From contig CP040678.1 in NCBI GenBank assembly GCA_005954745.1, forward strand, positions 2,542,001-2,606,000: a stretch of DNA of 64,000 bases. Reading direction: 5' to 3'. Made by a program: the position numbers and the translations under genes. This document shows positions 32,763-57,014 of the stretch, in pieces. Origin of the DNA: Halostella pelagica. Its GTDB lineage: Archaea; Halobacteriota; Halobacteria; Halobacteriales; Natronoarchaeaceae. Within the stretch, counting starts at the first letter, position 1; the number at the start of each line of letters is the position of its first letter. Below the pieces are notes generated by a model that made no database searches, was not told where the DNA came from, and saw only the letters and a list, made by a program, of their open reading frames with translations.

Positions 32763-32850
32763 GGTATTAGTAGTCAGGAAACGGTTTACACGCTGATCGA
32801 ATCGCTGTCAAGCGATCCGGTGCACATTGAGTTTCAGTGACTACTATACC
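32763..32850. repeat. Palindromic repeat element, copy A
   Basis: An ~88-bp element with imperfect 20-nt terminal inverted repeats, left arm 32763-32782 and right arm 32831-32850 (outer core GGTAT...ATACC, inner ...GTTTCAGTGACTAC). An inner stem ATCGCT/AGCGAT (32801-32806 and 32811-32816) can form. By hand alignment it matches the element at 55981-56062 with about 12 differences in 75 nt. It stands free between DUF5813 and tRNA-Leu. It resembles a MITE or structured RNA repeat. Confidence 0.7.
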
Positions 32851-55217: not shown

Positions 55218-55994
55218 ATGAAACGCTCGAAAACACAGTCCGTTCGACGAATCCTCGCGACGCTTTTCGTCACCATGATCGTCCTCACGGCCGGTTGTTC
55301 CGGCGTGACGGGTATCTTCGGGAACGACGACGGGGATAGCGGGGTCGAACCGTACACCGAATCCGGCGATGAACTCACCGGCGAAATGCTGAACGAGAGC
55401 CACCGCGACACGCTCCGTTCGGCCGGATCGTACACAGCCGAGGTCAACATTTCGCTGACGAGCGACGAGTCCTCGATCACGCAGGACACCCGGGGGAAGG
55501 TCGACCTGGAAAACGACCGTCAGTACGTCGTCCAGTCCGCTAGCCTGTTCGGCAACCGGACTACCTACCGGTACATGGCCGATAATGTCACCTACGAGAA
55601 GGTGGTCCCCGAGGGCGGCGAAACACGGTACGAGACGACTCAGAACGCGGAGACCGCGTCTGCGTCCGTCAACACGGACAACATCGACGCCTTCGAGTGG
55701 GAACAGCGCGGCACCGAAACCCACGAGGGCGTCGGTGTCACCCGGTACGAGGCGACCGGCGTCGCCAACTACAGCGCACTGCCGACCGACGCCAGCGAGG
55801 ACAACATCAGTGACCTCTCCGCGACGCTGCTCGTGACCGAAGACGGCGTGATGTACGAGTACACCGTCGATTACACCCGGGAGTCCGACTCGACCCAGGA
55901 ACTCTCACTCCGTTACGCGACGCGAGACATCGGGTCGACGACGGTCGAAGAGCCGGACTGGCTCGACGAGGCACAGAGCAATAGTAGTCACTGA
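55218..55994 (+). CDS. Secreted lipoprotein (DUF7537-like) ending in the repeat
   Basis: The 258-residue protein has a Sec/Tat-like start (MKRSKTQSVRRILATLFVTMIVLTAGC) with lipobox Cys27. The mature region has Thr/Ser/Glu-rich beta strands (SYTAEVNISLTSDESSITQDTRGKVDLENDRQYVVQSASLFGNRTTYRYMADNVTYEKV) and N-x-S/T glycosylation sites (NRT, NVT, NYS). I recall similar haloarchaeal lipoproteins as DUF7537. The stop codon lies within the palindromic repeat at 55981, so the C-terminal codons (NSSH) are partly repeat-encoded. Confidence 0.82.
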   Translation: MKRSKTQSVRRILATLFVTMIVLTAGCSGVTGIFGNDDGDSGVEPYTESGDELTGEMLNESHRDTLRSAGSYTAEVNISLTSDESSITQDTRGKVDLENDRQYVVQSASLFGNRTTYRYMADNVTYEKVVPEGGETRYETTQNAETASASVNTDNIDAFEWEQRGTETHEGVGVTRYEATGVANYSALPTDASEDNISDLSATLLVTEDGVMYEYTVDYTRESDSTQELSLRYATRDIGSTTVEEPDWLDEAQSNSSH

Positions 55995-56062
55995 AACGAT
56001 TTACACGCTGATCGCATTGCTTTCGTGCGATCAGGTGTGTATTGATTTTCAGTGACCACTAT
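55981..56062. repeat. Palindromic repeat element, copy B, containing two stop codons
   Basis: An 82-bp element with terminal inverted repeats ATAGTAGTCACTGAAA (55981-55996) and the complement of ATAGTGGTCACTGAAA (56047-56062), one mismatch in 16. The inner stem CTGATCGCA/TGCGATCAG (56008-56016 and 56026-56034) has a 9-nt loop. It sits between two convergent genes: the lipoprotein ends in Ser-His-TGA from the left arm and DUF5787 ends in Gly-His-TGA from the right arm. It is a homologue of 32763-32850 (about 84% by hand alignment). An RNA hairpin could terminate both transcripts. Confidence 0.78.
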
Positions 56063-57014
56063 AAGAGAACCAGTCGAGACCCGCCTGTCGCCGCGCGACG
56101 CCGTCGGGGTCGTCGACCCACGGTGACCGGTCCGCGCGTTCGGCGGCGGCGTCGACAGTGGGGCCGTCGTCGGGTGCGTACTCCGGACAGTCCGGTCCGC
56201 ATTCGTTTCCCGGGTCGACGACGCGGCCGTGCCAGTCACAGCGCGGAACGCCGCCGCGATCGACCGTGGCCCGCCGGCAGGCCGGAAACTCGTCGGGTCG
56301 CCACCCCTTGCCGTAGGCGCGTTCTGCCAGGCGGCGACGGTACTGAGCTTTCTCTGCGGCGGTGACTGGCCGTATCTCGGCGCGACCTGGGTGTTCTTCG
56401 ACGAGTTCGATACCGCCCGCATCGACGGGGAGCGGCGTCGGCGGTTGAACCACCTCGACGCCGTCGGGGGGGTCGAACCGCCAGACGCCGACCTCGTCGG
56501 GGATGCGGTTCAGATGCGCACGGGTGACGTGGCTCTCGGTCGCGAGGACGACTTCGTCCGCGAGAGCAAGGCTGACATCCGTCCGTAACTGGCGACGGAG
56601 CGCGCCCGGCGAGCCGAGATCGGGTTTGTTTTCGATGGCCCGGATCCGGCCGAACCAGTCCGGATACCGGGCGACCTGTCGGACGTAGTCGCGGTTGCCC
56701 CGTCGCTCTCGCTCGAAAAAGCCGACATCGACGGCGCGGTCGACCACGTCGCGGGCGCGGTCCGGGTGGCAGTCGAACGCGTCCTTCCAGTACCGGAAGC
56801 GGCCGGGCCCCACGTCGCTCTCGACGGCGAGGGCGGGGATCCGTGCCGGCGTTATCTCCGTTCGGGCGTCGAACTCCGGACCAGGGGTCACGGCAACGAC
56901 ATCGAGGATACGGTTTCCGGGAGCGGCGACACCGCCGCCTAGCTGTCGGGCGACGAGCGTCTCTGGGTCCTCCAAGTGGGCACACAGCGCCAGTTCGAAC
57001 CCGAACTCTCGCAC
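56049..57014 (-). CDS. DUF5787 family protein
   Basis: The 321-residue acidic protein matches the haloarchaeal DUF5787 pattern, as I recall: MREFGFELALCAHLEDPETLVARQLGGGVAAPGNRILDVVAVTPGPEFDARTEITPARIPALAVESDVGPGRFRYWKDAF. A C-terminal C-x13-C-x2-H-x10-C-x3-C region (PACRRATVDRGGVPRCDWHGRVVDPGNECGPDCPEY) is a probable zinc site. The acidic Glu/Asp positions near RFRYWKDAF and EVVLATESHVTRAHL are similar to restriction-like nucleases, but I see no certain PD-ExK motif. The last five codons (SYSGH) and stop come from the palindromic repeat. Confidence 0.72.
   Translation of the reverse strand: MREFGFELALCAHLEDPETLVARQLGGGVAAPGNRILDVVAVTPGPEFDARTEITPARIPALAVESDVGPGRFRYWKDAFDCHPDRARDVVDRAVDVGFFERERRGNRDYVRQVARYPDWFGRIRAIENKPDLGSPGALRRQLRTDVSLALADEVVLATESHVTRAHLNRIPDEVGVWRFDPPDGVEVVQPPTPLPVDAGGIELVEEHPGRAEIRPVTAAEKAQYRRRLAERAYGKGWRPDEFPACRRATVDRGGVPRCDWHGRVVDPGNECGPDCPEYAPDDGPTVDAAAERADRSPWVDDPDGVARRQAGLDWFSYSGH

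Follow-up and report, generated by a model that had tools for sequence, protein, structure and literature searches.

A short mobile element of probable IS630 type at the shared stop codons of two convergent genes in Halostella pelagica

A putative lipoprotein gene (Pfam DUF7537; 55218-55994, plus strand) and a DUF5787 gene (56049-57014, minus strand) converge in the window, the 64,000-nucleotide stretch of Halostella pelagica DNA analysed here. Between their converging ends lies a MITE block of 86 bp, counted with its TAs (55979-56064). Its 80-bp core (55982-56061, plus strand) is an imperfect palindrome with terminal inverted repeats TAGTAGTCACTGAAA and TTTTCAGTGACCACTA, and the hairpin of the locus is much stronger than those of shuffled sequences (z -6.7). 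The TA at 56062-56063 represents the right target duplication; the corresponding left position (55980-55981), assigned from empty sites, reads AA here and TA in most copies. Both genes terminate inside the element: the TGA of the lipoprotein gene (55992-55994, plus strand) falls within the left arm, and that of the DUF5787 gene (56049-56051, minus strand, read 56051-56049) within the right arm. The final codons AAT AGT AGT CAC and TGA of the former gene, and TAT AGT GGT CAC and TGA of the latter, are derived from the element together with its TA, and the encoded proteins end in ..DEAQS-NSSH and ..GLDWFS-YSGH. The initial annotation had placed a palindrome between the two genes and derived both stops from its arms; the palindrome is real at the positions given above, and both ..QSNSSH and ..WFSYSGH are followed by a TGA borne by an arm. 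Its description of stops supplied in one frame from both sides holds for the two sides but is too narrow as to the frame: each end of the element stops two of the three forward frames, one by a TAG (positions 4-6) and one by a TGA (positions 14-16), and the third frame is open through the element.

The element belongs to a dispersed family, and the homologous copy suspected earlier near 32763-32850 is one of its members. This second copy (32765-32849, plus strand) is 83% identical to the element at 55982-56061 and more decayed, with a damaged left arm; it lies in a divergent intergenic region adjoining tRNA-Leu, away from gene ends, and supplies no stop. A genome-wide search of the kind proposed in the initial annotation finds about 35 dispersed copies across all four replicons of the window's genome (the chromosome and three plasmids), and 0, 0, 1 and 1 copies in four genomes of the same genus. 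The family is present in 113 of 392 haloarchaeal genomes sampled from the order, with first-look counts of up to 145 candidates per genome, and on 47 plasmids, all of them haloarchaeal and mainly from Natrinema, Haloarcula, Natronorubrum and Halomontanus. Searches for the MITE in phage records, of the window against Rfam, and of the genome contigs with a long exact pattern of the element gave no match. The family consensus is CTATAGTAGYCACTGAAACGATTTACACACTGATCGCA..TGCGATCAGGTGTGCAATGACTTTCAGTGRCTACTATAG, with true inverted repeats in its outer 17-18 bases and an imperfect, asymmetric palindrome between them. The arms of the inverted repeats change together between copies at positions 5, 10, 12 and 13, copies being compared irrespective of their relatedness. 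As in an IS630-type MITE, the element is too short to encode a transposase and occurs in many dispersed copies, some genomes holding far more of them than others.

Several copies depart from the usual structure. Four of them (L247, L248, L253 and L049) carry the same unusual change at both ends, e.g. TATCGTAGCC..GGCTACGATA, as if the arms had been corrected to match each other. Tandem copies, adjacent or overlapping, occur at G163:C28:204061-204236, G183:C4:183168-183333 and G183:C6:94602-94766. A lone right end at L223 796-818 (genome G183), with the left half absent nearby, might be a half-element or a deletion product.

Natural empty sites are found in relatives. Two genomes of the same genus, G003 and G004, contain the same lipoprotein and DUF5787 gene pair without the element, and the empty locus reads GAACTAGCC and GAACTAGTT, with one CTAG common to both stops. 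The element-free lipoprotein gene ends in ..GAGGCGCGGAACTAG (DEARN and stop) or an equivalent, and the DUF5787 gene in ..TTCGGCTAG (..GLDRFG and stop) or ..ACGAACTAG (..FTN and stop); ..GLDRFG or a similar sequence is the usual end among 76 DUF5787 orthologs from other haloarchaea. Element-free orthologs of the two genes, which the initial annotation had suggested comparing, end in other codons, at the shared CTAG, and both window proteins have about the same length as these relatives up to the old stop, followed by four residues. In G002 (L369) the element-free lipoprotein ortholog ends in DEARNSSGN, with a changed spacing of the gene pair; this end resembles the element tail without matching it.

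The same relationship is observed at other loci. Copy C1:856136 of the window's genome occupies a position at which, in three relatives, convergent genes have GACTAGTA, or a close variant of it, in common. In the high-copy, Natrinema-type genome G251, an intergenic GGGGGCTAGTCG of five relatives and an intergenic TTGCTAGA of two relatives are filled exactly at the TA, and two other empty sites are ATAG and GTAG. At three of the nine tested sites the expected CTAG is missing from the relatives, which carry CCAG, CTGG or a similar sequence in its place; instability of CTAG is the probable reason. One G251 protein ends in ..DAIYSSR, where five relatives end in ..DA(I/V) (GATCTAG or near variants). 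At sites L034 and L035 the flanks are too diverged to read. TA stands at positions 2-3 in nearly all MITE ends of G251, and C precedes the TA in 73-88% of MITE ends. The pairs of empty and occupied sites show the pattern that characterizes IS630-type MITEs, insertion into a TA that then flanks the element on each side. Taken from these comparisons, the MITE appears to insert at TA, usually inside CTAG, with duplication of the TA, a duplicated TA and a TA native to the palindromic element looking alike in sequence alone. The preferred target is a rare tetranucleotide in both genomes: CTAG is depleted 7-fold in the window's genome (207 seen, 1,550 expected; stretches L333-L352 and the window) and 14-fold in G251 (91 seen, 1,244 expected; stretches L380-L399).

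The product of insertion into CTAG would be C-TA-[TAGTAGYCACTGAAA..TTTCAGTGRCTACTA]-TA-G. With the TA duplicated, insertion at NNC-TAG forces the frame TAT-AGT-AGY-CAC-TGA, so that a stop at NNC-TAG is converted to NNC-TAT-AGT-AGY-CAC-TGA, the protein gaining about four residues and ending at the TGA of the element. Since the ends of the MITE are inverted repeats, the complementary strand undergoes the same exchange, and two convergent genes with stops overlapping in a single CTAG each retain a stop after the insertion. Read in the forced frame, 148 of 162 MITE ends give a four-residue tail and a stop, mostly YSSH, YSSR or YSNN. A gene entering the element with CTA in frame hits TAG at once, and only the third frame continues. 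The occupied and empty forms of the window locus indicate that the element landed on the stop common to the lipoprotein and DUF5787 genes, each of which gained its four-residue tail in this way. Short C-terminal tails of this kind are presumably harmless.

A candidate mobiliser is encoded in several genomes by PF13358 (DDE_3) insertion sequences that measure 1,059 bp including both TAs and have ends C-TATAGTARNCGTTAGAA, C flanking 83% of the ends. One of these elements is 86.7% identical to a copy annotated as ISNma7, IS630 family, in Natrialba magadii. The 1,059-bp insertion sequence encodes an HTH + DDE_3 transposase between TATAGTA ends and is a member of the ISNma7-like group; the membership applies to this partner and not to the window element, which encodes no protein. 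The terminal repeats of the MITE (TATAGTARYCACTGAAA) and of the insertion sequence (TATAGTARNCGTTAGAA) are compatible at about 13-15 of 17 positions, which gives the MITE IS630-like ends, and differ at about three fixed positions; an insertion sequence with exactly the 17-bp end of the MITE was not found. End positions 14-16 are occupied by TGA in 148 of 160 MITE ends and by TAG in 57 of 58 ends of the insertion sequence, which is also observed on gene stops, adding YSSR or YSNR and a stop. The two kinds of element co-occur in more genomes than expected if they were independent: ISNma7-like elements are present in 41 of the 113 MITE-bearing genomes versus 36 of the 279 others (p 5e-7, genomes being counted irrespective of kinship). 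PF13358 elements of the Haloarculaceae-type genome G171 were rejected as partners, their ends being unrelated.

The window's genome and G251 contain many MITE copies (92-99% identical in G251), and a search of both for an ISNma7-like transposase detected none; in G251, exact MITE ends spaced about 1 kb apart, as expected of an autonomous copy with perfect ends, were searched for and not found. Which transposase moved the copies of these two genomes is something we infer. In Haloquadratum, MITEs are reported to spread without a visible functional transposase (PMC3119063). MITE copies themselves hold ISNma7-like elements, at L214, L231 (G072) and L218 (G346) and probably at L289 (G305), in each case in one and the same CTAG of the MITE interior (GTGTGTAAC-TA-GTTGCAG). 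These cases span different genomic places and genera; the CTAG might be a landing site used repeatedly, or MITE and insert might move together as a composite.

We consider it highly probable (about 0.9) that the element is a MITE, that an ISNma7-like transposase (IS630/Tc1-mariner type) moves it in trans into TA, preferably within CTAG, and that insertions inside genes are lost; their removal by selection would leave copies between genes and on stop codons. A REP/BIME-like palindrome, spread through single-stranded DNA by an IS200/IS605-type Y1 (RAYT) transposase, would share with the element the GTAG/CTAC at the foot of an imperfect hairpin, the conserved asymmetric bulges and the many intergenic copies. 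Such spread is, however, not expected to produce the TA duplications seen here, and the precise insertion into CTAG with TA on both sides, the true terminal inverted repeats and the likeness of the MITE ends to those of a DDE-type IS630 element make this origin very improbable. The strong hairpin, its location between convergent genes at this locus and the covarying arms of the terminal repeats might also point to a domesticated regulatory element, either a bidirectional terminator or an RNA processing hairpin, retained by selection for that function where genes converge. We regard this role as slightly less credible still: the element has neither a T-run nor an Rfam match, many copies are located between divergent or tandem genes, relatives have the same gene pair without it, and the usage of sites tracks the available tolerated CTAGs.

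Site statistics bear on a further explanation, in which the preference for CTAG is accompanied by an active search for stop codons or the 3' ends of genes. For the assignment of site classes each copy was excised in silico and one gene-calling method was used throughout, the gene context of the window's own genome coming from a codon-usage gene caller applied to genome stretches. Among 117 classified copies, 17 lie on stop codons, 14 inside genes and 86 in intergenic regions. The CTAGs available in the own genome number 143 in genes, 54 between genes and 10 at stops, and copies inside genes are depleted relative to the available CTAGs there (p 1e-10) as well as in G251 (p 0.009) and G183 (p 0.001). 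Stop-seeking would account for the presence of 6 of 32 own copies on stops versus 10 of 207 CTAG sites (p 0.011), but with intergenic CTAGs as the sole reference for stops no excess is left (p 0.56, 0.71 and 0.34 in the three genomes), and insertions into CTAGs inside genes are simply lost. It is about as improbable as the REP-like origin, and the placement at gene ends is explained by CTAG targeting and the disappearance of harmful insertions, without any aiming at genes. Some of the copies inside genes truncate C-termini, e.g. at sites L248 and L267. The enrichment check suggested in the initial annotation accordingly finds copies depleted inside genes and located between genes and at gene ends; stops supplied by the arms, which were to be weighed against chance, are present but no commoner than other tolerated CTAG sites. 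The underlying idea of insertion into 3' ends with little harm gains support, with the correction that the target is the TA in CTAG, some CTAGs being stops.

On both strands, the position of TAG in the insertion sequence is that of TGA in the MITE. This suggests that the ends of this group of transposons might have been selected for a stop in the frame imposed by CTAG, making stop codons safe landing sites. We offer this reading tentatively and consider it rather unlikely, as it draws on two related end types and the stops might be a by-product of the sequence bound by the transposase.

Mobilisation of the MITE in trans into CTAG provides an account of how a mobile element could enter the end of a gene, or of two genes together, with hardly any cost, and links the target motif of a transposon to stop codons as well as to the scarcity of CTAG. 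It would explain why YSSH, YSSR and YSNN tails recur on haloarchaeal proteins, a possible source of error in protein annotation and in the comparison of orthologs. The empty and occupied sites form a natural series for the fitness effects of short C-terminal tails.

A search of the open literature, with ISfinder and subscription papers outside its scope, found no description of a haloarchaeal IS630 MITE or of a stop-for-stop exchange. The MITEs and short mobile repeats of Haloquadratum are likewise short, haloarchaeal and transposase-free, with inverted repeats, but the short mobile repeats have no target duplication and no known IS end, and mostly target PATEs or IS605 (PMC3119063); the TA duplication and IS630-like ends of the window MITE exclude it from this type. 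The RUP element of Streptococcus pneumoniae is an IS630-Spn1-dependent MITE with stops in all frames, and resembles the window MITE as an IS630-type element of about 100 bp with a TA target and ends similar to those of a resident IS630 element; it is, however, bacterial and unrelated in sequence, and the portion of the description cited here does not mention CTAG or an exchange of stop codons (PMC2229807). Pneumococcal BOX repeats provide 36 genes with the stop at their very 3' terminus and do not clearly truncate them, but represent a different repeat family, and a stop-for-stop target rule is absent from the cited portion of their description (PMC3049150). The IS630 of Shigella shares the preference for TA in CTAG (Tenzen and Ohtsubo 1991, cited in PMC2170065), but is a full bacterial insertion sequence. 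The haloarchaeal ISNma7-like IS630 elements share with the MITE the CTAG/TA target, ends starting with TATAGTARNC, a stop in the same frame (end positions 14-16) and occurrence on gene stops; they differ in their length of 1,059 bp, in encoding a transposase and in the end TTAGAA, as against CTGAAA in the MITE, and no shared interior was noticed. The components of the system each have precedents, in the CTAG preference of IS630, in IS630-dependent MITEs and in repeats that supply stop codons.
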